Shown one piece after another: positions 8,998 through 61,942 of a stretch of 64,000 bases of DNA. The first letter of the stretch is position 1, and each line of letters starts with the position of its first letter. The notes under the pieces were generated by a model. The model was not told the origin of the DNA. It made no database searches and was given only the letters and a program-made list of their open reading frames with translations. The stretch is from Sinosporangium album (GTDB lineage: Bacteria; Actinomycetota; Actinomycetes; Streptosporangiales; Streptosporangiaceae): the NCBI RefSeq assembly GCF_900100605.1, contig NZ_FNCN01000013.1:124001-188000 (forward strand), written 5' to 3'. Both the position numbers and the translations under genes were made by a program.

Positions 8998-9672
8998 ATG
9001 CCGAAGTCAGCGGGTGGTCTCCAAGAAGGAGACCCTGCCTATGAAGCAGACCACCTCCGCGTCGCCGTACGGACGGATGACCTGCTCAGCCATGCCGGAC
9101 TGACTGCTCTCCTGCACGCGGCGGCCCATGTGATCGTGCTGTCCGACAGCTCCCGAGAGCGCGCCGACGTGACCGTGGTCGCGGCCGCCGGAAAGATGGC
9201 GGAGAACCACGGGATCCTCAGGCGGGCTGCCCGTGACCTCGGGGCACCGGTCATCTTGATCACTGACCGGCTGTCACCCGACGACATGCTCACCGTCGTG
9301 CGCTACCAGGTCATGGCCGTCTTGCCGCGCCGAGCCATGACCGCTGAACTGCTGATACGCGGCGTGACCGCGGTGGCCGCCGGCGACGGCCTCATGCCAC
9401 CCCAACTGGCCGGCGGCCTCCTGGAGCACCTGCACCGGCTGCAGCGCACCTCGCGCGAGCCGACCTTCACCTGGGTGAGCGGACTCACCGAACGCGAGAT
9501 CGAGATCCTGCAGTTGGTGGCCGAAGGGCTGGACACCACCGAGATCGCCGAGCAGCTTCGCTGCTCCACGCGGACCGTCAAGAGCATCATGTACAACATC
9601 ACCCACCGACTGAACCTGCGCAACCGCACCCACGCGGTCGCGCACGCGATGCGCACCGGCCTGATCGAGTGA
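8998..9672 (+). CDS. LuxR-type regulator with degenerate receiver domain
   Basis: The C-terminal ~65 residues are a LuxR/NarL HTH (LTEREIEILQLVAEGLDTTE, then CSTRTVKSIMYNITHRLNLR). The N-terminal half has a receiver-like alternation, but the position of the phosphorylated Asp reads VTVVAAAGK, so phosphorylation is unlikely and control may be by ligand or level. The start is uncertain: the ATG at 8998 and a TTG at 8962 both lack a good ribosome site. It opens the peptide-export cluster and most likely controls it. Similar atypical LuxR proteins are often found beside NHLM exporters in actinomycetes. Confidence 0.82.
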   Translation: MPKSAGGLQEGDPAYEADHLRVAVRTDDLLSHAGLTALLHAAAHVIVLSDSSRERADVTVVAAAGKMAENHGILRRAARDLGAPVILITDRLSPDDMLTVVRYQVMAVLPRRAMTAELLIRGVTAVAAGDGLMPPQLAGGLLEHLHRLQRTSREPTFTWVSGLTEREIEILQLVAEGLDTTEIAEQLRCSTRTVKSIMYNITHRLNLRNRTHAVAHAMRTGLIE

Positions 9673-9679
9673 GGTGATC

Positions 9680-9727
9680 GTGCCGTCGTGCCGTCGTGCC
9701 GTCGTGCCGTCGTGCCGTCGTGCCGTC
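9680..9727. repeat. 8-bp tandem repeat, six copies
   Basis: GTGCCGTC is repeated six times without error, starting 8 bp after the regulator's stop. Since 8 is not a multiple of 3, copy-number changes would shift any frame read through it. Confidence 0.92.
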
Positions 9728-9764
9728 CGCCGTACCACGATCCGCGTTCCTTGGAGGAGGCGTC

Positions 9765-29144: not shown

Positions 29145-29633
29145 TCAGGCCGCCTGATCGAGCGCTGAAAGGGCCGGCGGGAAAGTCACGACGTCGAGGG
29201 CCGCGGCGCGTAGCTGTCGGCTGAGCCGGTTCGGGTGGGAGAGCACGGTGACGTGGATGCCGCGTCCCCGCAGCCAGGTGGCGAGGCCGGTGAAGTAGTG
29301 GTCGCCGGAGCCGATGACGACGCGTTCGAAGCGGAGGTCGATGCGGTCGTGCCGCGCGGTCTCGACCAGCGCCCGGTCGGCGCCGTCGCGACCTGAGCGG
29401 GCCAGGAGCCGCATGCCGCGGAGCGCGATTCCGGCCGCGATGAGGGAGTGGTGGCTGACGGCGGCGATGAAGTGGTCCATGGGGCCGATCGCGATGTGGC
29501 GCGCGTAGAGGGCCATGACCTCGTGGACGGACTCGGTGGTGGGGCAGCCGGAGCCCGTCAGGTTCTCGATGTCCAGAAGGTGGATGGCGCGGCCGTGCCG
29601 AAGCGCTCGCAGGCGGCGGCTGGGGGAGGTCAC
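29145..29633 (-). CDS. NYN/PIN-like domain protein (putative RNase)
   Basis: This 162-residue protein shows the NYN pattern: an N-terminal Asp strand (AIHLLDIENLTG), a central acidic site (SGRDGADRALVE), and the C-terminal VIGSGDHYFTGLATWLRGRG with VTVLSHPNRLSRQLRAAA. The conserved aspartates would bind Mg2+ for RNA cleavage. It faces the DNA methylase gene across a region with repeated TTGATG half-sites, which suggests shared control. Confidence 0.75.
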   Translation of the reverse strand: MTSPSRRLRALRHGRAIHLLDIENLTGSGCPTTESVHEVMALYARHIAIGPMDHFIAAVSHHSLIAAGIALRGMRLLARSGRDGADRALVETARHDRIDLRFERVVIGSGDHYFTGLATWLRGRGIHVTVLSHPNRLSRQLRAAALDVVTFPPALSALDQAA

Positions 29634-29721: not shown

Positions 29722-29751
29722 TTGATTCTGTTTAAGCCGGTGGAGTATGGT
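29722..29751 (+). promoter_or_regulatory. Putative promoter of the DNA methylase gene
   Basis: TTGATT (-35) and TATGGT (-10) are 18 bp apart, placing the transcript start ~15-20 bp before the ribosome site GAGGAGG at 29764-29770. Confidence 0.5.
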
Positions 29752-29775
29752 CACATGCACAATGAGGAGGTGTGC

Positions 29776-31836
29776 GTGCAGAAGGACGTCCAGCTCACAG
29801 CCGCGGATGTCGCCAGGCTCGCGGGGGTGGGCCGCGCGGCCGTCAGCAACTGGAGACGCCGCCACGAGGACTTCCCGCAGCCGGCCGGCGGCACCGCCAC
29901 CAGCCCGTCCTTCTCCTACGCCGAGGTCAAGCACTGGCTGCGCACGCACGCCGAGGGCAAGACCTTCCCCGCCGACGAATGGCTCTGGCAGGAGCTGCGG
30001 CTGGTCACAGAGGACGAGGATCTCGCCGACCGGATCACCGCCATCGGCGTCTTCCTGCTCTTCCTGCAGCGGCGGCCCGCGGCGTGGAAGAGCCTCGCCA
30101 GAGCCGACGACGACGCCCTGGCGCGCGACCTCCCCGCACAGGTGCGGCTCCACTGCGCCGACCTCGCCTTCCCATGCACCGTTCCCGCAGGCCGGATCGC
30201 CCTGCTCAGACAGGTGGCCGACCAGGCCCGCCAGCGCGGACCGCTCGACACGTTCGAGTTCCTCCGCAAGCGTTACGTCGAACTGCACACCAGGCGCGTC
30301 TACTCCACCCCCGCCGAGATCGTCCACCTGGCCTTGGACCTCGTCGGTGACAAGGCGGAATCCGTCTTCGACCCCGCCTGCGGCTCGGGCAGCTTCCTGA
30401 TCGGCGCGCACGAGCGGTTCGGCCGGGTCCGCCTCATGGGCCAGGACATCGACCACGCCGTCTCGCGGCTCACCGCCGTACGGCTGGCGCTCCGCTCCGC
30501 CGACGCCGACATCCGCACCGGCGACACGCTGCGCGTGGACGCGTTCCCCGACCTCGCCGCCGACGCGGTCGTCTGCAATCCGCCGTTCAACGAGCGCAAC
30601 TGGGGATACGAGGAGCTCACCGCCGACCCCCGCTGGGAATACGGCCTGCCGCCCCGCATGGAGTCCGAGCTGGCCTGGGTCCAGCACGCGCTCGCGCGTC
30701 TGGCCGCGGGCGGCACCGCCGTACTGCTGATGACGCCCACGGTCGGCAACCGCAGGTCGGGCCGGCGTATCCGCGCCCAACTGCTGCGGCGCGGGGCGCT
30801 GCGCGCCGTGATCGCGCTGCCGGCGGGGAGCGTGCCCAACATGGCCGTGGCGCTCACGCTGTGGGTGCTGCGCAAACCGGTCGACAGCCGTACGCCTGGC
30901 CACCTGCTGATGGTGGACACCGCCTCGCACCCCGAGGACTTCGCGCGGGTCGCGCTGCGGGCCTGGCGGGCGTTCCGCGAGGGGGAGTCGCTCGACGAGG
31001 CGGGCGTGTGCCGTACGGTGCCGCTGGTGGACCTGCTCGACGACGAGGTCGACCTCACGCCGGGGCGCTACCTTTCCACCGCGGGGGAGGCGTTGTCGCC
31101 GGAACGGGTCACGGGGGCCCGCGACCGGCTGGCCGGGCTGCTCCACGCCGCCCGCGGCCTGATGCCCGCCATCGAGGGCGAGGGCCGCGACCTGCCGGCG
31201 GTGCCCGTGTCCGAGCTCGTACGGCGAGGCATGCTCACGCTGCACCAGCAGGCCGCCGCGAAACCCGGCGACACCTCGGAGGTGCCGCCCGGCTCACGCG
31301 TGCTCACCGCCAAGGACGTCGTGACGGATCAGGACGCTTCGGGCACGACCCCCGAGACCGCGGTCCAGCACTCCATCGTCGTCCAGGAGGGCGACGTCGT
31401 CGTGCCGCAGATCGTGCAGACCCTCGTCGCCCGCGTGGTCTCGGGCGGCGGTGCGGTCCTCGGCACGCATGTCACGCTCCTGCGGCCCGACCCGGCGCGG
31501 CTGGACCCCCACTTCCTGGCGGGGTTCCTCTGCGCCTCGGCGAACCTGCGCGAATACAGCTCGCTGTCGTCGCAGTTCCGGGTGGACGTCCGCCGCGCGC
31601 GGGTGCCGCTGCTCCCTCTTGACGAGCAGCGCCGGTACGGCACGGCCTTCCGCCGCCTGGCGGCGTTCCAGGCCGCGCTCCGGCAGGCGGCGGAGGTCGG
31701 CGACGGCCTCGCCCGCCTGGTGGCCGACGGCCTGACCCGCGGCGCCGTCCAGCCGCCCGCCGACATCCGCGCCGACATTCCCGCCGACATCCCTGCCGAC
31801 ATCCTCGGAGATGTTTCACCCGACGTTCCGCGCTGA
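29776..31836 (+). CDS. N6-adenine DNA methylase with N-terminal HTH
   Basis: GTG 29776 is selected because GAGGAGG lies five nucleotides upstream. The protein (686 residues) begins with a helix-turn-helix (LTAADVARLAGVGRAAVSNW). The HsdM-like core has the SAM motif DPACGSGSFLIGAH and catalytic VVCNPPFNERNWGYEE. The C-terminal ~250 residues may be a target-recognition part. The very end is a repeat (ADIPADIPADI). No restriction endonuclease or HsdS is adjacent, so it is either an orphan methylase or a component of an unrecognised system with the divergent NYN protein. Confidence 0.85.
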   Translation: MQKDVQLTAADVARLAGVGRAAVSNWRRRHEDFPQPAGGTATSPSFSYAEVKHWLRTHAEGKTFPADEWLWQELRLVTEDEDLADRITAIGVFLLFLQRRPAAWKSLARADDDALARDLPAQVRLHCADLAFPCTVPAGRIALLRQVADQARQRGPLDTFEFLRKRYVELHTRRVYSTPAEIVHLALDLVGDKAESVFDPACGSGSFLIGAHERFGRVRLMGQDIDHAVSRLTAVRLALRSADADIRTGDTLRVDAFPDLAADAVVCNPPFNERNWGYEELTADPRWEYGLPPRMESELAWVQHALARLAAGGTAVLLMTPTVGNRRSGRRIRAQLLRRGALRAVIALPAGSVPNMAVALTLWVLRKPVDSRTPGHLLMVDTASHPEDFARVALRAWRAFREGESLDEAGVCRTVPLVDLLDDEVDLTPGRYLSTAGEALSPERVTGARDRLAGLLHAARGLMPAIEGEGRDLPAVPVSELVRRGMLTLHQQAAAKPGDTSEVPPGSRVLTAKDVVTDQDASGTTPETAVQHSIVVQEGDVVVPQIVQTLVARVVSGGGAVLGTHVTLLRPDPARLDPHFLAGFLCASANLREYSSLSSQFRVDVRRARVPLLPLDEQRRYGTAFRRLAAFQAALRQAAEVGDGLARLVADGLTRGAVQPPADIRADIPADIPADILGDVSPDVPR

Positions 31837-34884: not shown

Positions 34885-36039
34885 ATGAGCCGGCTCGATG
34901 CGCTGCGCGGTCCGACGCCGCCCCTGGACCACAACGCTCGCAGCATCGCCGCTCTCGCCGCCAACCCCGCCTGCGACCGCCGCGCGGTGCTCGACGCCGT
35001 CGGCGTCGACAAGAACCTCATGGCCGTGCACCTCGGCTACTCGGCGCAGTTCGGGCAGTCGCCGTTCGCGGTGGTCCGCACACGGCAGTTCGAGGAGATC
35101 GTGAGGGCCGGCGGGGGCGCCGGTCTGCTGCCGCTGCTGCGGGAGGCGCTCGGTCTGTCGATCGACACGGCCCGGTGGGAGTCCGCCGACGAGTCCGCCG
35201 ACGAGGGCGGCGGTGAGTCCGCCGAGGAGGGCGCCGGCGAGGCGCACGCCGTACGGCACACGCGCACCGAGGCCCTCGTCGCCCGCGCGGCCGGCGACCC
35301 GGGCACGGCCGTGGTCCTTGACCGGCTGCTGCTGCGGCTCGACGTTGCGGGCCACGAGGTCCACCTGGAGCCCGGCGTCCTCGTCTTCCAGGCCGGTGAG
35401 CGCTTCCACGTGGTGACGATCAAGCCGTTCGCCGTCGTCGACGGACAGGCGGAGACCGGCAGGGTGTCGGCGGCGGCCCGCGAGGCCGCGGTGTATGTGC
35501 ACGCCATGCGGGCCCTGCTCGTCCGGATGGGGCTCGCGCCGGACCGCGTCTCGCACGACGTCGTGCTGGTGTGCCCGGAGAACTTCTCCAACGTTCCCAC
35601 CGCCTCACTGCTGGACGTGCGCCGCGAGCTTTCGGTGCTGGCGTGGCAACTGGCGAGGCTCACCCGGATCGACCGCATCCTCGACGGCCTGCCGTCCGGG
35701 CTCAGCCTCGACCTGCGGATCGAGGCCGGCGTCCCCACACGGCCCGCCGCCGACCTGGACGAGGCGGTTTCGGGGATCGCGGCGAGATACGCCCCTGAAT
35801 GCCTGTCCGCCTGTGAGATGGCCTACTTCTGCCGGGCCGAGGCCAGGTCGGGCGGCGCGCTGGATGCGCTGGGCCGTGCCGTACGCGACGATCTCGGCGG
35901 GGTGGAGACCGTCGGCGCCGCGATCGGGCTCGCCACGGGCACCCGTACGGCTACCGCCGGCGAACAGGGCGTCGCCGAGCGGCTCCGCCACATCCGGAAG
36001 ATCTACCAGGAGACGGTCGCACAGGAGACGGTCGCATGA
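34885..36039 (+). CDS. Cas4/AddB-like putative nuclease with iron-sulfur cysteines (gene 1 of a three-gene cassette)
   Basis: From ATG 34885 the protein has 384 residues. Cys30 (ANPACDRRAVLDAVGVDK) and a C-terminal C306-x3-C310-x5-C316 (ECLSACEMAYFC) reproduce the four-cysteine 'iron staple' of Cas4/AddB nucleases. The centre (LEPGVLVFQAGERF, VVTIKPFAVVDGQ, AAREAAVYVHAMRALL) resembles a PD-(D/E)xK core, although the residue two before Lys180 is Thr rather than Asp/Glu. An acidic linker lies near 100-120. The ATGA overlap with the next gene and the downstream helicase suggest a split helicase-nuclease. Confidence 0.65.
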   Translation: MSRLDALRGPTPPLDHNARSIAALAANPACDRRAVLDAVGVDKNLMAVHLGYSAQFGQSPFAVVRTRQFEEIVRAGGGAGLLPLLREALGLSIDTARWESADESADEGGGESAEEGAGEAHAVRHTRTEALVARAAGDPGTAVVLDRLLLRLDVAGHEVHLEPGVLVFQAGERFHVVTIKPFAVVDGQAETGRVSAAAREAAVYVHAMRALLVRMGLAPDRVSHDVVLVCPENFSNVPTASLLDVRRELSVLAWQLARLTRIDRILDGLPSGLSLDLRIEAGVPTRPAADLDEAVSGIAARYAPECLSACEMAYFCRAEARSGGALDALGRAVRDDLGGVETVGAAIGLATGTRTATAGEQGVAERLRHIRKIYQETVAQETVA

Positions 36040-37499
36040 GCATGTTCCGCTCCTACCTGAAGGCGCAGGCGTTCCACGAGGGCCGGGCGCAGCCGTCGGC
36101 GACCGTGCGCCATGTCCACCTGTCGCACGCACCGCTCGTGTTCGTCCCGCTGCGGATGGCCGGTGAGGCGGCGGCGCCGCTCGGGGCGATGGTCGGCTGC
36201 GACCGGGCGGCCCCGACGCTGCTGGTCGTCCCGCAACCGCGCAACCGCGAGCTGCGGTTCGCGTTCGCGACGGAACTCGCCGCCGTCGTCCTGCCCTACA
36301 TCGAGCGGTTCGCGGGGGAGACCGAGACGGTCGAGGCGAAAACCCCCTATGAGCGGTGCCTCGACGCTCCGCAGATCCTCGTCCCGAACCCCCGGGGGGT
36401 GGCGTTCAGCAGGCTTCTGGGAAGGTCCACGAGGTTCCGCCGTACATCGGGCCCTTATGCCGTCCCCCCCTCCGTGCCGGCGTTCGGGCAGTGGCTGACG
36501 TTCCTCGCCGAACGCGCGGAACACGCGGGCTCGTCCATGTTCCTCGCCATGACCGATGTTCTCGCCGCCCACTGGGTCACGGGGCAGAGCGGCGTCGAGG
36601 ACGGCACGCTGGCGGCCCTGCTGGCCTGGATCGCTCCACCTGCGGGCTCCACCGGGCACGAGGCCGCCGCCGAGTCCGAGGACCCGACGCGCACACCACC
36701 GGCCGGGCCCGACACCGACCCCGAGTTCGACCGGAAGGTCCTGCAGCCGGCGATCGACGCCTACGACGCGTCCGGCTCGCCGGAACGGGTGGAGGAGGCG
36801 CTGCGCCGGCATCTCCAGCCCACCTGGGACCTCATGTGGCGCGCGGTGGATCTTCTGCGCGGCCTGCCCGAGGCCGCCGGAGTGAGCGGCCGGTGGGAGA
36901 GGGACCGCACCGCGCTGGCCCGCGAGGTCGCCAGGCTCGGCGAGAACCCGACGCCGCAGGGGCGCTGGGACAGTCCGGTCGCGGCGGCGCGCCGGCTCGC
37001 CGCGCTGGAGATCGCCCAGCAGACCTACGAGGCGGCGCGGGCGTTCGACGACCCTCTGGCGATGGCGGAATACCGGGTGGAAGGGGCGGCGTTCGCCGGC
37101 GAGGTCGTCGCGGTGGAGGCCGACCGCCGCATCGTGCCCCCCGGCGGCAAGCGAGCGGTCCCGCGCCCCCTGGTGACCGTCCGGACCGGCGACCCTGTAC
37201 GGCTCGCGCCCGGCACGCGGGTGTTCTCGCCAGCCCGCCGTACCCAGCGGAAAGCCGAGATCGTGTCGGTGGCGGGGGATACGGTGACCATCCAGATCAA
37301 CGACGGCATGGGGCAGGGCCGCGAACCCGCGCCGGGGAGCGTGCCCTCGCTGGGCGAGGTCGTCTGCTACACCGACCTCGACCCCGGCGGAGGCCGTACC
37401 CCGCCTCTGCCCGCCCTTTCGGACACGCCGTGGACCCACGGCGGTCCGCCCGAGCCGTACGTTCCCACCGACGAGGACGCGCAGGAAAGCTGGTCATGA
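36036..37499 (+). CDS. Unknown protein, middle gene of helicase-nuclease cassette
   Basis: The protein has 487 residues, no membrane segment and no recognised enzyme motif. Features seen are a beta-rich N-terminus (PLVFVPLRMAGEAAAPLGAM), a Pro/Glu-rich linker near 210-230, a long helical stretch (LRRHLQPTWDLMWRAVDLLR) and a C-terminal beta-barrel-like region (PVRLAPGTRVFSPARR, VTIQINDGMGQG). Overlaps with both neighbours (ATGA at each end) mean that the three products are made together, probably as a complex. Confidence 0.7.
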   Translation: MSMFRSYLKAQAFHEGRAQPSATVRHVHLSHAPLVFVPLRMAGEAAAPLGAMVGCDRAAPTLLVVPQPRNRELRFAFATELAAVVLPYIERFAGETETVEAKTPYERCLDAPQILVPNPRGVAFSRLLGRSTRFRRTSGPYAVPPSVPAFGQWLTFLAERAEHAGSSMFLAMTDVLAAHWVTGQSGVEDGTLAALLAWIAPPAGSTGHEAAAESEDPTRTPPAGPDTDPEFDRKVLQPAIDAYDASGSPERVEEALRRHLQPTWDLMWRAVDLLRGLPEAAGVSGRWERDRTALAREVARLGENPTPQGRWDSPVAAARRLAALEIAQQTYEAARAFDDPLAMAEYRVEGAAFAGEVVAVEADRRIVPPGGKRAVPRPLVTVRTGDPVRLAPGTRVFSPARRTQRKAEIVSVAGDTVTIQINDGMGQGREPAPGSVPSLGEVVCYTDLDPGGGRTPPLPALSDTPWTHGGPPEPYVPTDEDAQESWS

Positions 37500-38794
37500 C
37501 CCCCAGACAGGCCGCCGAAGCCGCCACCGCGGCGATCCTGGCCGACTACACCGGCGGAGGGCACCGCGGCCTCGTCGTCGACTCGCCGCCGGGTGCGGGC
37601 AAGACGACCCTGGTCGTGGCGACCGCGATGCGGCTCGCCGAGGCGGGCCGCGACCTCATGGTCGTCGCGCAGACCAACGAGCAGGTGGACGACCTCGTCG
37701 ACAGGCTCGCGGGCAAGGCCCCCGGCGTCAGTGTCGGGCGCCTCCACAAGGAGGGTTTCCAGCCGCCCGAACGCGTGACCCGCCACTCGAACGTCACGCT
37801 CCACAACAAGGTCGACAAGGTGCAGCACTGCCAGGTCGTCGTCGCGACCGCCGACAAATGGGCCTACGTGTCGGGGCGCACGTGGCCGTGGGCCATCGTC
37901 GACGAGGCATACCAGATGCGGTCCGACAAACTGCTCGCCGTCGCGCCGCTCTTCGCCGACGGGCACACGCTGTTCGTCGGCGACCCCGGACAACTCGACC
38001 CCTTCTCCGTCGTCGACAGCGAACGTTGGACGGGCCTGGCCTGGGACCCCATGCAGAGCGCGGTCGCCGTCACCCAGCGGCTCAACGACCTCGCCGTGCA
38101 CCGGCTGCCGGTGTCCTGGCGGCTGCCCGCCACCGCCGCGCCCGTCATCGCCGACGCCTTCTACCCGGCGAGCCCCTTCGTCTCCGGCACCGCGCACGGC
38201 GAACGGCGGCTGAGCCTCTCCCCGGCCGCCGCGCGCGACCCCCACGACGCCGCACTGGAGGAGGCCGCCTCCTCGGGGTGGGCGCTCCACGAACTGCCGC
38301 CCCGCCACACCGTGCGCACCGACCCCGAGACGGCCGCGGCCTGCGCCGCCCTCGCCCGCCGCGTGCTGGAGCGCGGCACCACCGCCCACGACGAGTACGG
38401 CTTCCGCCCCGTCACCCCCGACCGCGTCGCGGTGGGCTGCGCCCACAACGACCAGGTGGCCGCCGTACGCCAGGCGGGCGTCCCCGACGGCGTCACCGTC
38501 GACACCGCCAACAGGCTGCAAGGGCGCGAATACGACGTCACCATCGTGTGGCACCCGCTGTCGGGCCGACGCGACGCCACCGCCTTCCACCTCGAATCCG
38601 GCCGGCTGTGCGTCCTTGCCTCCCGTCACCGCCACGCCTGCCTCGTCGTGGCCCGCGCGGGCATCGCCGACCTGCTCGACAACCACCCGTCGAGCCTGCG
38701 GGTCCAGCTCAACGTGCCGGTGAAGTTCCCCGACGGCTGGGCCGCCAACCAGGCGATCCTCGCCCATCTCGCCCGCCACCGCGTCCCCGGCTGA
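37496..38794 (+). CDS. SF1-type helicase/ATPase, third gene of the cassette
   Basis: This 432-residue protein has Walker A in DSPPGAGKTTLVVATA, Walker B in WAIVDEAYQM, motif III in FVGDPGQLDPFS and a C-terminal UvrD-like motif (VDTANRLQGREYDVTIVWHP). It is shorter than UvrD or Dna2 because accessory 1B/2B domains are small. It should unwind DNA or RNA using ATP. The adjacent Fe-S nuclease candidate suggests DNA end processing, repair or defence. Confidence 0.83.
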   Translation: MTPRQAAEAATAAILADYTGGGHRGLVVDSPPGAGKTTLVVATAMRLAEAGRDLMVVAQTNEQVDDLVDRLAGKAPGVSVGRLHKEGFQPPERVTRHSNVTLHNKVDKVQHCQVVVATADKWAYVSGRTWPWAIVDEAYQMRSDKLLAVAPLFADGHTLFVGDPGQLDPFSVVDSERWTGLAWDPMQSAVAVTQRLNDLAVHRLPVSWRLPATAAPVIADAFYPASPFVSGTAHGERRLSLSPAAARDPHDAALEEAASSGWALHELPPRHTVRTDPETAAACAALARRVLERGTTAHDEYGFRPVTPDRVAVGCAHNDQVAAVRQAGVPDGVTVDTANRLQGREYDVTIVWHPLSGRRDATAFHLESGRLCVLASRHRHACLVVARAGIADLLDNHPSSLRVQLNVPVKFPDGWAANQAILAHLARHRVPG

Positions 38795-39373: not shown

Positions 39374-41278
39374 TCATTGATGTCTGGGGATGGGGACGTG
39401 GAGCGGGTCCCGCGGCCGGGGTCTGGGGCCGGTGAGGTCGGTCGACAGCAGGGTCGCGAGGGTGTAGAGGTTCCAGGCCAGGCCGGGGCGGCGCACAGGG
39501 CCGTCGGCGAAGAGCTTGGCCACCTCGTCGGGGCGGATGATCTGCTCCAGGGCCGGTGAGGCGCACACTCCCTTGAAGAGGATCTCGCTGAGTTCGTCGT
39601 TGGGGTGGGTGCGCCAGCTCCACGCTTTGGCGGCCGGTTTCCGCTTCGCCGCGGCCGGTTTCGCTGTGGGGGGCTTCGCCGCGGGAGGCTGCGCCCGGGG
39701 CGCCTCGCGGGCCTCGCGGGCCTCGCGGGCCTCGCGGCCGAGCACGCGGTCGCGGAGCCGCGCCCAGCGGCCCGGCTCGGGCGTCGGGGGTGCCGCCGGT
39801 GCCGGCGGTGGCGGCGCTTCGGCGAGGAAACGCCACGGTGAGCCTTCGAGCGGGATGTCGGCGAGGGCCGGGGCGAACTCGCCGAGGAGCGCGTGGACGA
39901 GGGCTTCGGAGCGCCGCCAGGCCGGGTCGAGGGCGAGGGCGGCCCGCACCACGTGGTTGTCGAGGAACGGGGTGGTCGAGGTGCCCCGCCGCAGGGCGCC
40001 GGCCCGCGCGGAGGCGTGCCAGCGGCCCACCCGGTAGACGACGTACGTGTGGTCGAGCACCTCAAGGCCGTTGTCGCGTTCGAGCCAGGGGGCGGCGAGG
40101 GCACGGGCGTGCTCGTTCGCTTCCGGTGTGAAAAGGTCCTCGTCGTTGAGGAAGAGCGAGCGCACCTTGCGATCGATCGCCTGGGGAGTGATCGCCGACA
40201 TGCCGCAGAGGAATCCCCCTCGGAGGATTTCGCCGCTCTGCCCTGACATCGTGGGCTTCTTGGAGTACGGCCCGCCGCCCACGATGCTCTCGTAGGCGGA
40301 GGTCATGCCCTCGCACACCCGGATCACGTCGAACGCGCGGTCGGCCGGGTGCTCCACGACCACCTCCGACCGCGAGGCGGAGCGTTCCGGCGGGATCACC
40401 CGGTGCTCGACCCCGAGCACGGCGGCGATCCGGCGGGCGAGTACCACGTCCGGGTTGTCGTCCAATCCGTAGGTCGTCGTGATGAACGGGACCTTCGCCG
40501 CGCTGAGCATGGCGGCGATCAAGCGGCTGTCCCGTCCTCCGGTGAGGGCGAGGTTGACGGGTTCCGCCGTGTCGCGCAGCGGCGCCGCGGAGGCGGCCAG
40601 CGCGGCGGCGAGGTCCTCGACCGCGGTACGGCGGGTGCGCGGATCCATGGCCCCGGCCGTGGGGAGCGGGCTTGTCGTGACCGTGGCCACGCCGCCGCGC
40701 GTCTCGAAGCGGGACGCGGGCGGGAGGGCGGCGACGCCCTGGAACGGTGTCTCGTCTGAGAGGAAGTATCCCTGTCTGGCCATCGACTGGAGGGCGAGGA
40801 CGTCGAGCCGCACACCGGCGCCCGCCGCCAGGTGGACGAGCAGGGCGCGGTTGCCGATGATGTGGAGCTCGGGGGTTTCGGTGTGGAAGACGGGATAGGC
40901 CCGGGTCAGAGGGGTTGCTCCGAACACGCCAGACTCGTCCGCCCGGAACAGGGAGAAGCAGCCTGCCAGGTCCCACGGCGACCGCGTGGTCATCAGGGCC
41001 GAGGCGTCCCGCGGGTCGGCGAGATATCCGGCATATCCGGCGGCCCCGGCTCCTCCGGTCCCGGCTGCGGCGCCGGGGCCCGTGACCAGCGCCTGGTCGG
41101 GTTCGTTGCTCCAGACGAGCAGGGCGTGGGACTCGTCGGCGGAGCGCCAGTCCTCCCGGCGGATCGTCCCGGCGGGCACGGGGAACACCTCGGCGATCAC
41201 CTGTTCCGCCGCGTGCTCTGCTGCGCGGGTCGCCGCGCGATCGTGGTGCTTCGCGGCGATGGCGAGGAAGATGCGCAT
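39374..41278 (-). CDS. Asparagine-synthase-like protein without glutaminase cysteine
   Basis: This 634-residue protein starts after AAAGGGGGCACC. The C-terminal synthetase domain carries the PP-loop as NLALTGGRDSRLIAAM and later FLDNHVVRAALALDPAW. The N-terminal Ntn-like domain begins MRIFLA, so it lacks Cys2 and cannot hydrolyse glutamine itself. An Ala/Pro/Lys-rich insertion with REA repeats lies near residues 515-560. Homologous stand-alone proteins form amide bonds on unknown substrates, and lasso-peptide cyclases are one branch. No lasso B or precursor gene is recognised here. Confidence 0.8.
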   Translation of the reverse strand: MRIFLAIAAKHHDRAATRAAEHAAEQVIAEVFPVPAGTIRREDWRSADESHALLVWSNEPDQALVTGPGAAAGTGGAGAAGYAGYLADPRDASALMTTRSPWDLAGCFSLFRADESGVFGATPLTRAYPVFHTETPELHIIGNRALLVHLAAGAGVRLDVLALQSMARQGYFLSDETPFQGVAALPPASRFETRGGVATVTTSPLPTAGAMDPRTRRTAVEDLAAALAASAAPLRDTAEPVNLALTGGRDSRLIAAMLSAAKVPFITTTYGLDDNPDVVLARRIAAVLGVEHRVIPPERSASRSEVVVEHPADRAFDVIRVCEGMTSAYESIVGGGPYSKKPTMSGQSGEILRGGFLCGMSAITPQAIDRKVRSLFLNDEDLFTPEANEHARALAAPWLERDNGLEVLDHTYVVYRVGRWHASARAGALRRGTSTTPFLDNHVVRAALALDPAWRRSEALVHALLGEFAPALADIPLEGSPWRFLAEAPPPPAPAAPPTPEPGRWARLRDRVLGREAREAREAREAPRAQPPAAKPPTAKPAAAKRKPAAKAWSWRTHPNDELSEILFKGVCASPALEQIIRPDEVAKLFADGPVRRPGLAWNLYTLATLLSTDLTGPRPRPRDPLHVPIPRHQ

Positions 41279-52381: not shown

Positions 52382-52509
52382 GTGGTCTCGTGTCCTTGTC
52401 GGTGCGTCGGGAGCCTTCGGAGGTGACGGTTTCGGCGGTGCGGGCTTCGGAGCGGGCGGCTTCGGAGCGGGCGGCTTCGGCTGTGACGGCTTCGGAGCTG
52501 GCCGCTCAT
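52378..52509 (-). CDS. Arg-rich 43-residue frame coupled to sbcC and nurA
   Basis: The frame starts in an ATGA overlap with the sbcC stop and ends in an ATGA overlap with the nurA start, so it bridges the two genes without a gap. The product (MSGQLRSRHSRSRPLRSRPL and so on) contains about one-third Arg and would bind nucleic acid. The DNA is a 15-bp repeat (CTCCGAAGCCGCCCG), and another frame would be Pro/Lys-rich but has no start. It could be a real small basic subunit or only a coupling spacer. Confidence 0.4.
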   Translation of the reverse strand: MSGQLRSRHSRSRPLRSRPLRSPHRRNRHLRRLPTHRQGHETT

Positions 52510-54947
52510 GTGATCACCGTGCTCAGTTTGGAGCCGGACTCGTCCTTGGTGATCTCGAAGCGCACCGGCACGCGTTCGGCGAGGGCGGGCACGTGGGTGA
52601 CGACGCCGACCATGCGGTCCCGGCCCGTGGTGAGGCGTTCGAGGGTGACGGCGACGGTGTCGAGGGTCGCGGGGTCGAGCGTGCCGAAACCCTCGTCGAG
52701 GAAGATGGAGTCGAGGCTGCGGGCGGCGGCGGCAGCCATGCCGGCGACCTGGTCGGAGAGGGCGAGCGCCAGAGCCAGGGCCGCCTGGAAGGTCTCGCCG
52801 CCGGACAGGGTGCGCACGCTGCGGGCCAGCCCCGCCTCCCGGTGGTCGATCACCTCGATGTCGTTCTTGTCGCTCAACGCCAGCTCGAACTGGCCGTCGG
52901 ACAGGTCGCGCAGGGTGACGGAGGCCGAGGTGACCAGCACGTCGAGGGCTTCGGAGCACAGCCAGCGCTCGAAGTTGTTGGCCCGCAGCATCAGCGCCAG
53001 CTCGTGCGCGACCCGCGCCTGCTCGTCGAGCTCGGCGGCCTGCGCCGCGAGGGCCGCGGCGTGTTCGCGGTCGCGGCGGATCCGTTCGAGCTCGCCGGAG
53101 GCGAGGGCGACGGCGGTCACGGCCGCCTCGTGAAGGGCCGAGGCGTCGGCCTTCGAGGGCACGGCGACGTGGTGGGCGCGGAGCCGTTCGGCGATGGACC
53201 CGCGTTCGGCGGCCAGGGCCTGCTCGGCGGCCACGAGCCGCTGGATCAGGGTCGACAGGGTTCGCCGACCTCGGGCGGCGGCTTCTTCGCGCCAGGTCAG
53301 CAGGGTGGTCCAGGCGCGGGCGAGGTCGTCGCGGTCGAGCGGGGGAGCGTCGAGCGCCACGACCGAGTCGCGGGCGGCCGACAGGTCGCGCCAGCCCCGC
53401 TCGGCCCTCGCCGACAGCTCCTCGACGCGCCTTTCAGCCCTGGCGTGCGCCGCGCGGGCTTCGCGTGTGGCGGCGCGGGCGCTCTTCGCCGCGGTCTCGG
53501 CGGCGGTCGCCGCGTCGATCAACCGGCCCAGCTCGGCCCCGTCGGCGGTGGCGGGGGCGGGCAGGGTGGTGAGCCGCTCGCTCAATGCGGTGACGCGCTG
53601 GCCGAGTTTGACGGATTCGAGCTCGGCGGCGCGATGCGCCCGCTCGGCGTTCTCGCGACCTTCGCGGGCCGCGCGCAGCGCGCGGTCGGCGGTCTCCATG
53701 TCCGTCAGCGGGGGGTGGTGGGGCAGCTCGTTCACGGCCCGCAGGCACGCCGGGCAGGGCTCGCCGACGCGGAGCCTCCTGGCCAGCTCGGCGGCCGTGT
53801 GGGTGTCGCGCACCCGCTCCCGCTCGGCCTCGGCGGCCGTGAGCGCGGCGGCGGCCGAGGCGAGACCGGTCGCGAGCAGGGCCGCCTCATGGACGGCGGC
53901 CGCCGCCTTGGCCTCGGCGGCGGCAAGCTCGGCGGAGGTCCGCTCGTGGTCATGGAGCAGTTCCAGGGTGCGCACCAGGCCGATTCTGTCGGGCAGCTCC
54001 GACAGTTCGTCCTCGGCGTCCCGCTCGGCCGCCTCCAATTCGGCGATCCGCCGCGCGCACTCGGCCGCGGCGGCGCGTGCGGTGCGCAGCGCGTCGGCCA
54101 GGGTGGGCACGTCGGCCGGCATGGCGAGAGCCGTCAGCGCCGTGAGCCGCTCCTCACCCGCGGCGCGTTCCTCCCGGACACGCCTGAGCTCGTCGTCCTG
54201 GTCGCGCAGGGCGGCCACTTCGAGCCCCACCTGGTGGCTCAGGTCGCGCAGGGTCGACAGCCGTTCGGACGCGGCCCGCTCCGCCGCCTCGTCCGAGCCT
54301 TGGATCTTGCGGAGCTCGTCCCGTATGAACTCGGCCCTGTCCCTGGCGGCCTTCTCCTCCTGACCGGCGCGTTTGCCCACCCGCTCGTAGACCCCCGCGT
54401 CGAGGAGCTGCACCAGCAGGTCCTGCCGGTCGCGCGGCGGGGCGTGCAGGAACTCGGCGAACCTGTTCTGCGGCAGCACCACACACTGGGTGAAGAACTT
54501 GTACGGCAGGCCCGTGATGCGTTCGACCTCGCCTGTGACGCCGTCGCCGTGCCCCAGCAGCCGCACCGACGCCGCGAGCAGGTCGGCCAGCGGCGCGGTC
54601 TCCGGCACGGTGCCGTCGAGCTCCTCGACCCGTGCCTCGCGGGTGCCGACCACGCCGCGCGCGCTGCGCTGAAGCACGCGGACCACGCCGTATCGCCGCC
54701 CGCCCGCCTCGAACACCAGCGCCACCTCTCCCGCCGAGGCGGAGGGCGCGAGGGCGGGGGCCACGGATTTCTCGCGGCCCCAGCGGGGGGCGGTGCCGTA
54801 CAGGGCGAAGCAGATCGCGTCGATGACGGTGCTCTTGCCCGCACCGGTCGGGCCGACAAGGGCGAAGTAATCGATGCCGGAGAAGTCGACCGTGGTGGGT
54901 TCGCGGAAACTGCCGAAGTTCGACAGGTGCAACCGGAGTGGGCGCAT
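52506..54947 (-). CDS. sbcC: SbcC/Rad50-type SMC-like ATPase
   Basis: This 813-residue protein has a P-loop at residues 32-40 (GPTGAGKST), long coiled coils around a zinc hook (GEPCPACLRAVNELP, near 397), signature LSGGETFQAALALALALSD (~712) and Walker B SIFLDEGFGTLDP (~749). With SbcD it forms the Mre11-Rad50 DNA end-processing complex. Its ATG overlaps the sbcD stop by one base (TGATG). Confidence 0.93.
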   Translation of the reverse strand: MRPLRLHLSNFGSFREPTTVDFSGIDYFALVGPTGAGKSTVIDAICFALYGTAPRWGREKSVAPALAPSASAGEVALVFEAGGRRYGVVRVLQRSARGVVGTREARVEELDGTVPETAPLADLLAASVRLLGHGDGVTGEVERITGLPYKFFTQCVVLPQNRFAEFLHAPPRDRQDLLVQLLDAGVYERVGKRAGQEEKAARDRAEFIRDELRKIQGSDEAAERAASERLSTLRDLSHQVGLEVAALRDQDDELRRVREERAAGEERLTALTALAMPADVPTLADALRTARAAAAECARRIAELEAAERDAEDELSELPDRIGLVRTLELLHDHERTSAELAAAEAKAAAAVHEAALLATGLASAAAALTAAEAERERVRDTHTAAELARRLRVGEPCPACLRAVNELPHHPPLTDMETADRALRAAREGRENAERAHRAAELESVKLGQRVTALSERLTTLPAPATADGAELGRLIDAATAAETAAKSARAATREARAAHARAERRVEELSARAERGWRDLSAARDSVVALDAPPLDRDDLARAWTTLLTWREEAAARGRRTLSTLIQRLVAAEQALAAERGSIAERLRAHHVAVPSKADASALHEAAVTAVALASGELERIRRDREHAAALAAQAAELDEQARVAHELALMLRANNFERWLCSEALDVLVTSASVTLRDLSDGQFELALSDKNDIEVIDHREAGLARSVRTLSGGETFQAALALALALSDQVAGMAAAAARSLDSIFLDEGFGTLDPATLDTVAVTLERLTTGRDRMVGVVTHVPALAERVPVRFEITKDESGSKLSTVIT

Positions 54948-56098
54948 CAGCTCGTCTCCTCGTCGTACAGGCGGTCGAACAGCGACGTCACCGCGCCGTC
55001 GGCCTTGCCGGTCGCCGACAGATAGTCGCGGAAGAGCTCGCGCGGGCTGCGCGCCGCTCCGGGGGAGGCGCCCTTGGCGCGGGTGGCGGACACGGGGCGG
55101 AACCGCTCGTCCAGTTGCACGTCGAGGGCGTTGGGGAGCATGCCGCGCACCAGCTCCGCGAGCCCGGCGCGCGGGCGCTCCTCGACGAACACGCGCAGCC
55201 AGGCGCCGTCGTCGGGCAGCGCCGACAGCCTCTCCAGCGTGCCGCGCACCGTCTTGAGCGGTACGGCACGGGCCACGGCGACCTCACTGACCTTCGCCGG
55301 CCGGTTCGGCCCGACGTCCACCAGCAGTGCGCCCGGCGTGTTGTTCTCCTCGCCGAAGTCGACCGCGATGGGCGATCCGCTGTACCAGATCGGGCACGGC
55401 CCGGGGATCTGCTGCCTGCGGTGCAGATGCCCGAGGGCGGCATATTGCGTGGATGTGGGGAAGGCTGTGGGTTCGAAGTAGTACGAGAAGATGGAGTGCG
55501 CCTCCCGCTCCCCGCCGCCGAACGCCCCGCCGGGCATCGTGCCGTGCGAGGTGACCAGGTTGACCGTGCCGTCGGCGAACCCCTGCGTGAGCGCGGCGGT
55601 CAGCTGCGCGAACCTCGCGGCGTACATCCGGTTGTGCTCGGCCGCCGTGCCGCCGAGCGCCTCGGCCGCCCGCACGACATAGCGCTGGGACAGGAAGGGG
55701 AGCACGGCGAGGCGCACATCCTCGCCCGACCTCGCCCGGATCGCCAGCGTGCCGCCCTTGTCGGGACGGCGGAACGTGCCCACCACGTGGATGCCCAGCT
55801 CCCCGAGCACCGGCCGGTAGACGTCGAAGAGGTGGGCGTTGTCGTGGTTGCCCGCCAGCACCACCACATCGCGTTCGCCCTGTTCGCGCAGCGCGAGCAG
55901 GGTCTGCATGACGAGCGACTGCGCCTCGGGCGTGGGGGCGGAGGTGTCGAACAGGTCTCCGGCGACCAGGACCATGTCGACGTCCTCGTGTCTGGCGGTC
56001 TCGACGAGCTCGCCGAGGACCGCCTTGTGCTCCTCGACACGCTGGCGGCCCTTCAGGACCTTGCCCACATGCCAGTCGGCCGTATGCAGGATTTTCAT
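54947..56098 (-). CDS. sbcD: SbcD/Mre11-type nuclease
   Basis: From ATG 56098 (GGAG five nucleotides upstream) the protein has 383 residues with the calcineurin-like metal motifs KILHTADWHVGK, VLVAGDLFDTSAP, VVLAGNHDNAHLF and LVTSHGTMPGG, and LGHLHRRQQIPGP. It is the Mn2+-dependent exo/endonuclease of the SbcCD complex. It lies 29 bp after the HerA-like gene. Confidence 0.93.
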   Translation of the reverse strand: MKILHTADWHVGKVLKGRQRVEEHKAVLGELVETARHEDVDMVLVAGDLFDTSAPTPEAQSLVMQTLLALREQGERDVVVLAGNHDNAHLFDVYRPVLGELGIHVVGTFRRPDKGGTLAIRARSGEDVRLAVLPFLSQRYVVRAAEALGGTAAEHNRMYAARFAQLTAALTQGFADGTVNLVTSHGTMPGGAFGGGEREAHSIFSYYFEPTAFPTSTQYAALGHLHRRQQIPGPCPIWYSGSPIAVDFGEENNTPGALLVDVGPNRPAKVSEVAVARAVPLKTVRGTLERLSALPDDGAWLRVFVEERPRAGLAELVRGMLPNALDVQLDERFRPVSATRAKGASPGAARSPRELFRDYLSATGKADGAVTSLFDRLYDEETS

Positions 56099-56127: not shown

Positions 56128-57924
56128 TCAGAAGGGGGGCACGTCATCGTCGGCGGGCAGGCCCGCGAACGGGTCGTCGGCCGCGCCGGTGATCGGGTTG
56201 ACAGCGAGCAGGTGGGCCTCGGAGGGCCGGGTCGCCCAGGCCGGGAAGGGGAAGGCCACGGCGAGCGGCACGGGGATCTCCGGCTGGGCCACGAACATCG
56301 TGCCGGGCTTGGCGATGGTGGCGCGTTCTCTGGCCGTCCCGGTCAGCCACCCGTATTCCGAGCGGGTCGCCTCCGCCGGGTCGAGCCGCCCGGCGACCCG
56401 CACCGCGCAGTTGGCCACGATGCGCCGCTCGACCTCCGAGGCGGTCTGCTGCGCCCCGATCAGGATCACGCCGAGCGATCTTCCGCGTTCGGCCACGTCG
56501 AGCAGGATCTCCTTGATCGGGGAGTCGCCGTCCCGAGGGGCGTACTTGTTGAGCTCGTCGAGGACCACGAACAGCAGCGGCCTCGCCGTGCCACTGCTCT
56601 CCTTGCGGGCGAACTCGCCGCGCAGCGTGACGCCGACCACGAAACGCTGGGCGCGCTCGGGCAGGTTGTGCAGGTCGACGATCGTGACCTGGGCGTCGGC
56701 GGTGCTGATGGAGTGCGGCCGCCGCCCCGGCAGGTCGCCGCGCAGCAGCGGCGACAGCGCCCGCACCGACGAGCGCAGCCTGCGCAGGAACGCGTTGACG
56801 GTGCCCATGGTGACCTGCGCGCCCGCCCACCGCGCCCTGGTGTCCTCGCCCGTCACGAGGTCCTCGACGAGGTCGACGAGCTGCTCATACGTGCGGCACG
56901 GCGCGCCGCCGCCGACCCGCACCGCGCCCGCGTCGTCGGCGCGTTCGGCGTCGGTGCGCAGCCGGGCCGCGACCTGCGCCACGAGCATGGTGTATTGCGA
57001 GCGCTCGTCCTCGGCGTCTGCGAACACGAACCTCAGCAGCTCCTGCTCGCAGAACTCCGCCAGGGTCCAGTAGAACGCGCTCACGTCACGCGTGCGGGCG
57101 CTCACGTGCGGCACGGCGTTGGGGTCGCCGGGGCGGGGCGGCGCGAACACGTGAACGCTCCCGAACGGCCCCGCGGGCAGCCCGAGCCTGGCGTAGTCGC
57201 CGCGCGCCCGGTCGTCGATCCGCGTGTTGGCGTGGTCGATGAACAGCAGGTCCTCGCCCTTGACCGAGAAGATCAACGCCTTGGTGTTGGCCGCCTCGGC
57301 CTTCAGCACACCCGAAGTGAAGATCGAGTAGAGGAGGAAGGTGGCGAACGACGTCTTGGTCGCCACACCGGACACGCCGGAGATCGACACGTGGGCGCCG
57401 CGCGTGCCGTCGAGGAAGTCGAAGTTCAGGTAGAGCGGATGCCCGTCCCTGCCGAGCCCCATCGGCACCCGCTTCTGCATCACGTCGAAGTAGAGCGCCT
57501 GATCGCGGTCGGCGGCCTCGGCCCTGTAGGTCGGCGAGCCGGGCAGCGGAGGCACGAACACCTCGGGCTCGACACGCGTCACCCGCACCTCGGCGCTCTC
57601 GGCGACGGCCGCGGGCAGCTTCCCGTCGGCGATCAGGAACACGTCGGAGTCGAACGACGCGCCCTCATGCCGGGCCTCCACCTTGGTCACGACGCCGGCC
57701 ACGAGCACCTGGCCGTGCCCGGGCACCTCGCGCCGGGTGACCACCACGTCGTCGAGCTGCACGACCCTGCCGGGCTCCAACCCCACCCAGAACGAGAGCG
57801 GCGAGGCGGCCTGCGTGCCGAGCACCCGCCCCACGGCCTCCGCGGAGGCCGCCGGCGACGCCGCGACCTCCTCGGACGCGCCGGCGGCCGGGGCTTCAGG
57901 GGTCAGGCCGTTGGACAGGGTCAC
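56128..57924 (-). CDS. herA: HerA-like DNA translocase ATPase
   Basis: GTG 57924 follows GAGGAG by six nucleotides and gives 598 residues. An N-terminal HAS-barrel-like region (VVQLDDVVVTRREVPGHGQV) is followed by an FtsK/HerA-type ATPase: P-loop variant SGVSGVATKTSFATFL (~180, Thr replacing Gly), Walker B LFVVLDELNKYAP (~451) and the sensor region VILIGAQQTASEVERRIVAN. HerA hexamers drive NurA in DNA end resection. Its genomic place with Mre11, Rad50 and NurA homologues mirrors archaea. Confidence 0.85.
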   Translation of the reverse strand: MTLSNGLTPEAPAAGASEEVAASPAASAEAVGRVLGTQAASPLSFWVGLEPGRVVQLDDVVVTRREVPGHGQVLVAGVVTKVEARHEGASFDSDVFLIADGKLPAAVAESAEVRVTRVEPEVFVPPLPGSPTYRAEAADRDQALYFDVMQKRVPMGLGRDGHPLYLNFDFLDGTRGAHVSISGVSGVATKTSFATFLLYSIFTSGVLKAEAANTKALIFSVKGEDLLFIDHANTRIDDRARGDYARLGLPAGPFGSVHVFAPPRPGDPNAVPHVSARTRDVSAFYWTLAEFCEQELLRFVFADAEDERSQYTMLVAQVAARLRTDAERADDAGAVRVGGGAPCRTYEQLVDLVEDLVTGEDTRARWAGAQVTMGTVNAFLRRLRSSVRALSPLLRGDLPGRRPHSISTADAQVTIVDLHNLPERAQRFVVGVTLRGEFARKESSGTARPLLFVVLDELNKYAPRDGDSPIKEILLDVAERGRSLGVILIGAQQTASEVERRIVANCAVRVAGRLDPAEATRSEYGWLTGTARERATIAKPGTMFVAQPEIPVPLAVAFPFPAWATRPSEAHLLAVNPITGAADDPFAGLPADDDVPPF

Positions 57925-58011
57925 CGCGATCTCCTCGCTGCGCGCTTTCGGGTAAGGGCAGGGTAACCGGCCCCACTGACGCTCACGGCCCGATGGGGCA
58001 GGATGGGCGGT

Positions 58012-58392
58012 ATGGAGAGGTCCGTGCTGATCTTTGATGGGGACTGCGGCTTCTGCACCACCGCGGTGGAATTCGCCCGCCGCCGCATGCGTATCGACGC
58101 CGAGATCGTTCCGTGGCAGTTCACCGATCTGGCCGCGCTCGGCACCACCCGGCGGCGCGCGGAACACGAGGTCCTGTGGATCACGCCCGACGGGCGTGTC
58201 CGCGGCGGCGCCCAGGCCGTGGCCGTACTGCTCATCGCCGCCGGGCTCCCCTGGGCACCGCTCGGCGTGATCATGCGGATCCCGCCGTTCCGGTGGATCG
58301 CCCACGGCGTCTACCGTCTGATCGCGAACAACCGCCATGTGCTTCCCGGCGGCACCCCCGCGTGCTCCCTCCCGGCGAGCCGCCGCCCCTGA
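58012..58392 (+). CDS. DCC-family thiol-disulfide oxidoreductase
   Basis: This 126-residue protein has the family-naming DGDCGFC motif at residues 10-16 (LIFDGDCGFCTTAVEFARRR) and ends in a helix pair (FRWIAHGVYRLIANNRH). DCC proteins are thioredoxin-fold and of uncertain substrate. An ATG three codons earlier is possible. Confidence 0.87.
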   Translation: MERSVLIFDGDCGFCTTAVEFARRRMRIDAEIVPWQFTDLAALGTTRRRAEHEVLWITPDGRVRGGAQAVAVLLIAAGLPWAPLGVIMRIPPFRWIAHGVYRLIANNRHVLPGGTPACSLPASRRP

Positions 58393-58402
58393 CGGCATGC
58401 CC

Positions 58403-58424
58403 GCGGGCCCCGATCGGGGCCCGC
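58403..58424. terminator. Perfect 22-bp palindrome after the DCC gene
   Basis: GCGGGCCCCGA joins its exact complement without a loop, and a second stem, GTGCCGGAGG/CCTCCGGCAC, follows at 58442-58476. These hairpins separate convergent genes and probably terminate the DCC transcript. Confidence 0.6.
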
Positions 58425-58519
58425 CGCCCCCGGACATGACGGTGCCGGAGGCGAGGGTGGTCCTCACCTCCGGCACGCGCATGTGCGGGGGCACCGTACG
58501 GCATAAGCCGACGTTGGAG

Positions 58520-58562
58520 CCGAGCGCAGCGTGCGTCCCACCGCGCGGCACGCTGCGCTCGG
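58520..58562 (-). terminator. Terminator hairpin of the LPMO gene
   Basis: A 14-bp stem (CCGAGCGCAGCGTG with CACGCTGCGCTCGG, 15-nt loop) lies 22 bp after the LPMO stop. It has no T-run, as is usual in high-GC actinomycetes. Confidence 0.65.
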
Positions 58563-61865: not shown

Positions 61866-61942
61866 GCGCCGCTAGCTCAGTTGGTTAGAGCAGCTGACTC
61901 TTAATCAGCGGGTCCGGGGTTCGAGTCCCTGGCGGCGCACCA
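61866..61942 (+). tRNA. tRNA-Lys (anticodon CTT), second copy
   Basis: All 77 bases equal those of the copy at 8760-8836, including the encoded CCA. Flanks differ. TATTCT at 61851-61856 is a likely -10 box. Confidence 0.97.

Follow-up and report, generated by a model that had tools for sequence, protein, structure and literature searches.

We studied a stretch of 64,000 nucleotides from Sinosporangium album (contig NZ_FNCN01000013.1, positions 124,001 to 188,000; called the window below, with its own numbering) in which three overlapping genes, A, B and C, probably encode the separate parts of one DNA2-type helicase-nuclease, the copy in the window being predicted to act as a helicase whose nuclease clamp is dead. 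Computation supports the folds and motifs of the three parts, as well as their order and co-occurrence (see below). The genes are the following:

34885..36039, plus strand: gene A, 384 amino acids, iron-sulphur (Fe-S) RecB/Cas4-type nuclease-fold subunit, with a degenerate nuclease site in the window copy.
36036..37499, plus strand: gene B, 487 amino acids, DnaQ-like domain followed by the stalk and 1B barrel of a superfamily 1B (SF1B) helicase.
37496..38794, plus strand: gene C, 432 amino acids, SF1B (UPF1/DNA2-like) helicase domains 1A and 2A, with intact motifs.

A preliminary description of this DNA had reported three genes joined by ATGA overlaps, and its coordinates, strand and lengths all proved correct; both junctions, A/B and B/C, are four-base ATGA overlaps. 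Gene A starts at the ATG at 34885 with GGAGAG just before it, and its reading frame is open upstream as far as 34762. The third-position GC content of A, B and C was 0.91, 0.90 and 0.94, and a scan for promoters and terminators found nothing.

By its sequence the protein of gene C is a superfamily 1 (SF1) helicase of the UPF1/DNA2 type, in agreement with the small helicase described earlier. It matched AAA_11 in Pfam (E 4.6e-12), UvrD falling below cut-off (0.077); its best sequence match in the PDB was DNA2 (E 7.5e-8), and its profile matched SMUBP-2 and DNA2. Matches to TIGR00376 and NF040671 ("PLuB", a term not found in the open-access literature searched) were both far below their cut-offs. 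Eleven helicase positions were conserved across 114 rows, except for S or T at position 37 and two rows gapped at 36-37.

37586..37609, plus strand: Walker A motif of C (PPGAGKTT), preceded by about 30 residues; K36 in 112 of 114 rows, gaps in 2.

Because only about 30 residues precede this motif, C has no room for a 1B domain, which B supplies.

Gene A matched no family in Pfam or NCBIfam (E<=10) or in PADLOC on a single-sequence scan, and among 48 of its members PDDEXK_1 was found in three (best E 0.021), with other Pfam families, some of them helix-turn-helix domains, in one or two members each. Structure prediction, proposed earlier as a check, gave AlphaFold2 models of A and B with confidence scores (pLDDT) of 91.6 and 91.4 and with folds compatible with the DNA2 type. 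Aligned to known structures with VIA-align, whose background lies at Z 7-8, the A model scored Z 10.3 with Cas4 (7mi5_A), 9.4 with human EXO5 (7lw8_A), 8.2 with AddAB (4ceh_A), 8.2 with RecE and lambda exonuclease and 6.5 with DNA2 (5ean_A). Foldseek searches with the A model gave weak and consistent matches, the best to a Cas4-family protein (E 5.2e-3). Computation thus supports a Cas4/EXO5/DNA2-type Fe-S RecB nuclease fold for the modelled protein; the preliminary description would have failed had the first protein lacked such a fold, and this is not the case, because the model aligns with the Cas4, EXO5 and AddAB nucleases. Profile matches of A in the PDB were set aside: two designed repeat proteins (E 1e-8 and 4.8e-6), whose scores added up from many weak repeats matched to residues 17-46, and a viral protein (0.3).

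The conserved core of A, in 35 rows (the window and 34 relatives), consists of H..L-E-P-D..E-I-K..Q-x3-Y plus four cysteines, C30, C306, C310 and C316. These are the motifs of RecB/Cas4 nucleases with Fe-S cysteines, and they lie as follows:

34972..34974, plus strand: codon of Cys30, presumed to be the first Fe-S ligand; C in 115 of 120 loci, with four gaps and one unreadable residue (X).
35323..35496, plus strand: nuclease motif region of A, residues 147-204; the family has H147, D164, E178-x-K180 and Q200-x3-Y204, the window R, G, T, K, E and Y.
35800..35832, plus strand: codons of Cys306, Cys310 and Cys316 (C-x3-C-x5-C), presumed to be further Fe-S ligands; C at all three positions in 120 of 120 loci.

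The four cysteines noted earlier in the first protein were thereby confirmed. The full set H147, E162, D164, E178, K180, Q200 and Y204 was kept in 111 of the 120 loci, and in 119 of 130 after ten loci were added; the choice of loci favours intact active sites, since the patterns EIKSF.. or LV.P..F.N served to find the 80 named ones, the best of 581. With R147, G164, T178 and E200, the window copy has lost most catalytic residues and is predicted from these substitutions to be a dead nuclease clamp; the earlier label of a nuclease is right for the family and doubtful for this member. Eleven of the 130 loci are altered: four copies associated with pPIWI-RE genes (R147, L178, R180; see below) and seven of the clade of the window. 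These seven (L074, L075, L076, L077, L032, L078 and the window) form one clade with support 99 in a FastTree tree of 114 rows, to which modest weight is given, and all keep the four cysteines. The tree comprised the 120 A loci minus L045, L055, L067, L123, L128 and L148, where B or C was not called. Some loci are redundant: L032 and L078 are nearly the same, and L033/L124, L038/L126 and L041/L150 are identical in the tree. The alignments used 35 of 37 rows of A (A1), 63 of 77 of B (A2), 48 of 78 of A (A3), 37 of 67 of gene D (A4; see below) and 36 of 77 of C (A5).

Gene B, called earlier a 487-residue orphan, indeed had no Pfam, NCBIfam (E<=10) or PADLOC family on a single-sequence scan; 63 members gave only scattered weak Pfam matches, and its profile matched nothing meaningful in the PDB. 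Its model has two parts, assigned with VIA-align:

36126..36905, plus strand: B residues 31-290, DnaQ/DEDD exonuclease-like fold, probably non-catalytic.
36963..37430, plus strand: B residues 310-465, stalk and 1B barrel.

The first part scored Z 9.8 with the polymerase TgoT (7b08), 9.4 with Pol II (3k5o_B), 9.2 with a poxvirus polymerase complex, 8.2 with RNase T (3ngy_A), 7.8 with T7 polymerase and 7.4 with Orn. The second scored Z 10.1 with residues 5-159 of IGHMBP2 (4b3f) and 8.0-8.2 with DNA2, also matching SETX and Sen1; flavin-protein barrels reached Z 7.4, and Foldseek with the B model ranked riboflavin synthase first. Since no Foldseek match of B reached E<=0.001 and the VIA-align background lies at Z 7-8, the fold assignment of B rests on the consistency of its matches. 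DEDD enzymes carry a D-x-E motif in the first strand. This motif was absent from strand 1 of B in 14 rows, and over 127 rows no position from 34 to 41 was mostly acidic; the conserved acidic residues are E44, E188 and D189. We infer from these residues that the DnaQ-like domain is non-catalytic.

Placed in order, the three parts tile DNA2: A aligns with residues 31-412 of 5ean (Z 6.5), B residues 310-455 with residues 441-570 of 5eax_A (Z 8.0), and the C profile with residues 643-807 of 5eax (E 2.4e-8). The tiling of IGHMBP2 is likewise complementary and without overlap, B 310-465 covering residues 5-159 and C residues 200-609. An SF1B helicase with stalk and 1B barrel is thus present, spread over B and C.

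In other genomes the three genes keep together. A, B and strong matches of C (E<1e-60) were found in the same 48 of the 296 genomes of the class, so that the free separation which would have contradicted the preliminary description was not seen, C standing apart from A-B in two of the 48. B was present in 10 of 246 genomes of the phylum, all of them within the class, and in 114 of 121 genomes of one genus, by inference Streptomyces (that of genome G018). One gene stands between B and C in L066, L110 and L141. Weaker matches of C bring the total to 102 of 296 genomes and include open frames of about 1150-1200 amino acids, several of them on the same contig stretch as matches of TIGR03491. A scan of viral contigs with A gave eight pattern matches, none of them a relative, and a search of plasmids gave three records, one of chromosome size. 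The neighbourhoods of the usual copies recur within a genus and were constant in most of the 13 loci viewed. In core Streptomyces-type loci (L050, 12106-12690, and relatives) C is followed on its own strand by a Prim-Pol-like gene (PF09250, 1.6e-7), the cluster of which has members in eight loci, and by a small unknown gene.

A three-gene set of this kind was not found described in the open-access literature searched, while counterparts in one chain are known. TIGR03491 is the model of what we take to be the "TM0106 family" of RecB-like nucleases, and a literature search with "TM0106" found no relevant description. Twenty of its proteins (1092-1267 amino acids, picked for long frames) keep D124, D144-x-K146 and Q158-x3-Y162 in 20 of 20, and the two long forms scanned carry RNase_H_2 followed by AAA_11/AAA_12, the same domain order in one chain. 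The helicase of the 20 long forms is homologous to C (hhalign E 5.8e-25). They differ from A-B-C in being one chain (other members have short frames) and in that the acidic residues of RNase_H_2 (D331, E333, D429 and D494) are conserved in 20 of 20, whereas B has no D-x-E. Neither A nor B had a match in NCBIfam to TIGR03491 (0 families at E<=10), and genome G000 has none.

The distributions of the two forms are nearly complementary. TIGR03491 was over cut-off in 99 of the 296 genomes (113 at E<=0.001) and occurred over cut-off together with A-B-C in two only, G031 and G249, in the latter in a frame of 567 amino acids (Fisher p 2.3e-7 for 99 versus 48 of 296, a value that ignores phylogeny). 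Among 28 genomes of the family of the window eight had A-B-C, 13 had TIGR03491 and none had both (p 0.002, again ignoring phylogeny).

The nearest studied one-chain counterpart is Bad, a bacterial DNA2-like helicase-nuclease with an active nuclease (Wilkinson et al. 2020, PMC7430649; here and below according to the parts of that paper drawn on). It consists of an N-terminal Fe-S RecB nuclease, a central domain of unknown function without counterpart in DNA2, and a C-terminal SF1B helicase; it translocates 5' to 3' and cuts single-stranded DNA, inactivation of the nuclease unmasks unwinding, its role is unknown, and a second class is reported from Mycobacteria and Rhodococcus (PMC7430649). An Fe-S RecB part, a middle part and an SF1B helicase follow in the same order in A-B-C. 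The four-cysteine Fe-S RecB domain is found in A, by modelled fold and cysteines, the cluster being presumed; the RecB catalytic motifs of Bad are not found in the window copy (R147/G164/T178/E200), so that an active single chain (PMC7430649) compares here with three genes and mostly lost nuclease residues. B is likened to the central domain of Bad by position. No fusion of nuclease and helicase in one polypeptide was seen among the gene models of the family loci. Eukaryotic DNA2 also differs in being one chain, without the DnaQ-like domain of B.

The preliminary description had spoken of a split AddAB/Dna2-type machine that matched no named system. The Dna2 half of this is supported by the fold of A, the stalk and barrel of B, the 1A-2A core of C and the lack of free separation; the AddAB half is weaker. 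AddAB and AdnAB consist of large fused helicase-nuclease subunits with UvrD-like motors. They resemble A-B-C in joining an Fe-S RecB nuclease to an SF1 motor in more than one gene, whereas A has only 384 amino acids and matches nuclease domains, and no UvrD-like SF1A motor fused to a RecB nuclease was found; an AddAB-type helicase was ruled out, the best match of C being AAA_11 and not UvrD. Two further PF12705 frames on one contig of the same genome (1104 and 1542 amino acids) are probably a separate AdnAB. Cas4-like nucleases beside or fused to SF1 helicases, some in defence contexts, were reported by Hudaiberdiev et al. 2017 (PMC5704561), whose main text lacks the terms Actinobacteria, Streptomyces and TIGR03491; the helicases paired there are of the UvrD family, with no B-like protein in the parts drawn on. 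The claim of no named system thus holds for the three-gene form as far as searched and fails for its one-polypeptide counterparts, which are published (Bad, PMC7430649, as drawn on here) and modelled (TIGR03491). In their order A, B and C resemble a three-gene form of the bacterial DNA2-like (Bad/TIGR03491) enzymes.

Several observations weigh against one DNA2-type enzyme of this kind. At E<=0.001 neither model had a Foldseek match, and VIA-align scores of 8-10 are only moderately higher than the background, though the matched families agree. A and B showed no similarity to TIGR03491 proteins with hhalign, and for this reason their correspondence rests on fold, motifs and order. In G095 and G196, two members of a single genus, A-B and C share a strand but C is found some 37-50 kb further downstream, as if a large stretch (L045, L051-L055) had been inserted. 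The mutual exclusion of A-B-C and TIGR03491 is confounded by phylogeny, and three more A-B-C genomes (G101, G153 and G163) have TIGR03491 matches below cut-off. Distant C genes and the lack of sequence similarity to one-chain enzymes would be expected if C were a helicase of its own that only shares a transcript with B and an Fe-S nuclease-like protein; we consider this very unlikely, given that C has no room for the 1B domain that B carries and that the three share one distribution in 48 of 48 genomes. Decay also bears on the window copy (see below), since its dead nuclease could be an early stage of it.

In most relatives A is preceded by a further gene, D, which the preliminary description lacked, as it did the altered catalytic residues of the window copy. 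D encodes about 250-300 amino acids and stands directly before A in 92 of 120 loci, often with a four-base overlap. It had no convincing Pfam match and its members matched weakly, mostly families of the coiled-coil kind (ABC_tran_CTD in 10 of 37, best 0.0073; DUF2894 in seven, best 0.0011); one D protein had no PADLOC match, the D profile matched nothing meaningful in the PDB, and hhalign found nothing between D and TIGR03491 proteins. D was not found in 28 of the 120 loci: 13 core Streptomyces-type, nine f17-type (one of them Parafrankia, L150), two f37, L117, L075, L077 and the window. A miss of gene calling was rejected as explanation, tblastn having recovered D in only one of 29 loci called without it (L139), and one D query found nothing in the genome of the window. 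Upstream of A the window contains:

29145..29633, minus strand: NYN-domain gene (Pfam NYN 3.9e-5), homologues of which are divergent neighbours of D in related loci.

Such homologues stand divergently next to D in ten related loci. In the window about 5 kb separate the NYN gene from A, occupied by a DNA methylase, a kinase/regulator pair and another methyltransferase; the separation of D's usual neighbour from A suggests that D was lost when this stretch changed. The methylase (29740-31836, plus strand) is a stand-alone type I-like N6 DNA methylase (PADLOC MTase_I 6.8e-125, with a weak helix-turn-helix), a relative of which lies upstream of D-A-B-C in Nocardia jejuensis (L107). The start of another gene, VDFENIHMGLQRL, resembles by eye an NYN-domain protein; this gene is the first after C in L037 and L069, the second in L068 and the third in L039. 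NYN-type genes may thus neighbour A-B-C in two lineages.

The missing D, the altered residues of A and the 5 kb of other genes would fit a window copy that is the decaying remnant of a functional D-A-B-C operon. Rates of change point partly the same way: A diverges faster relative to C in pairs among the window, L075 and L032/L078 (z -1.8 to -3.2; window-L075 -2.9, window-L032 -1.8), against z -0.4 to +1.6 in pairs with L074 (window-L074 0.06) and +1.75 in the near-identical pair L032-L078. As these pairs share branches, the faster divergence of A in the clade is suggestive only. Decay of the whole seems unlikely to us: the three frames are open, A included, their overlaps are intact, third-position GC is high, the helicase motifs and four cysteines are kept, and the altered sites extend throughout the seven-row clade.

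Some copies stand in another setting. SbcCD (Mre11-Rad50) genes adjoin 10 of the 120 loci (L043, L044, L046, L072, L109, L116, L137, L146, L148 and L153), as well as L155, from the genus of the window, and six of nine newly added second copies (L198, L199, L200, L204, L205 and L206), none being detected in L203. They follow C on the same strand in L109, L116 and L137 and elsewhere are divergent before D; in the tree the SbcCD-linked loci fall in three separate clades (L148, without B, lies outside it). The nine second copies are those of one survey, leaving aside that of G101, already included as L046, and in G569 the twin at the other end; in G112, G531 and G551 a single gene is present in two pieces. 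On two plasmids (L072, L073) an annotated Wadjet JetD with DUF3375, DUF4194 and SMC-like genes lies downstream of C, and homologues of Wadjet genes were found in L204 and, weakly, in L155. pPIWI-RE genes and another PD-(D/E)xK nuclease flank L058, with homologues at L059, L201 and L202; the copies with E178L/K180R are these four and no others. On an 8.27-Mb contig L199 is situated 5-10 kb from one end, and the 10.68-Mb contig of G569 has a copy near either end, each at a distance of about 21 kb. Enrichment of Wadjet at the ends of Streptomyces chromosomes is reported in the part of PMC10482375 drawn on, so that a position near an end is by itself weak evidence.

Such neighbours would be expected if D-A-B-C with SbcCD were the normal form of an anti-phage or anti-plasmid system not recognised so far, the core copies being defence genes kept by vertical descent. 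We hold this reading to be doubtful, in view of the presence of B in nearly all genomes of one genus and the constant neighbourhood of the usual copy, both unusual for a defence gene; of the window copy, with no SbcCD or D next to it; and of PADLOC 2.0, which gave no family for A, B or one D protein and in which C resembled helicases of several systems only weakly (MkoA best at 2.6e-7, a partial match). The repair or phage-defence role proposed earlier finds contexts of both kinds among the relatives, and the neighbours of the window copy decide neither. An SbcC-like/SbcD-like pair in the window (52509-56098, minus strand), adjoining an 807-residue protein without Pfam match (56131-58551), was rejected as partner of A-B-C, lying 15 kb away and its SbcD being 27-36% identical to ten accessory SbcD proteins; a second SbcD of this genome is on contig 50.

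If the three proteins form one DNA2-type complex, as we infer, the stalk and barrel of B would dock on the two RecA domains of C, giving an SF1B motor for which 5' to 3' movement along single-stranded DNA is expected; the strand would be clamped by A, the Fe-S nuclease module, and the DnaQ-like domain of B, probably non-catalytic, would be a bridge or bind DNA. The threaded strand would be cut by A in most relatives, in end or flap processing. The window copy would be a helicase or translocase with a dead clamp, predicted to be uncoupled because, by analogy, inactivation of the nuclease unmasks unwinding in Bad (PMC7430649, as above). Most likely the core form serves in DNA repair, as an enzyme standing in for TIGR03491 proteins, and the accessory form with SbcCD and D is plausibly defensive, acting on invading DNA ends. 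Tentatively, and with some reserve, SbcCD and the four-protein D-A-B-C might be an actinomycete counterpart of the eukaryotic Mre11-Rad50/DNA2 end-resection pair, serving as an anti-invader or DNA-end module beside Wadjet and near chromosome ends, alongside a core form for repair, consisting of A-B-C and in some cases D; death of the nuclease would have left a pure motor in some lineages, that of the window among them.

Elsewhere in the window, an asparagine-synthase-like gene lies directly after C on the other strand (39374-41278, minus strand), and a tyrosinase gene with a MelC1-type start is at 60542-61786 (plus strand). Two identical tRNA-Lys(CTT) genes (8760-8836 and 61866-61942; 77 of 77 bases), 53 kb apart, flank the region, possibly as marks of an island or duplication; no integrase was found among four genes tested beside them (8998-9669, 9696-11288, 60542-61783 and 62374-63891).

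An operon present in nearly all members of a large genus (by inference Streptomyces), whose A and B proteins match no family in the libraries searched, thus appears to be a DNA2-type enzyme in three proteins. The central domain of bacterial DNA2-like enzymes has been described as completely unknown (PMC7430649, in the parts drawn on), and the part in the corresponding position here, B, models as a DnaQ-like fold. In the three-protein form nuclease, stalk/barrel and motor can be removed or swapped separately, and the clade in which the nuclease is naturally dead offers a test of the published view that the helicase is masked by the nuclease. The linkage of accessory copies to SbcCD and Wadjet suggests how Mre11-Rad50-type complexes may join a resection motor in bacteria.

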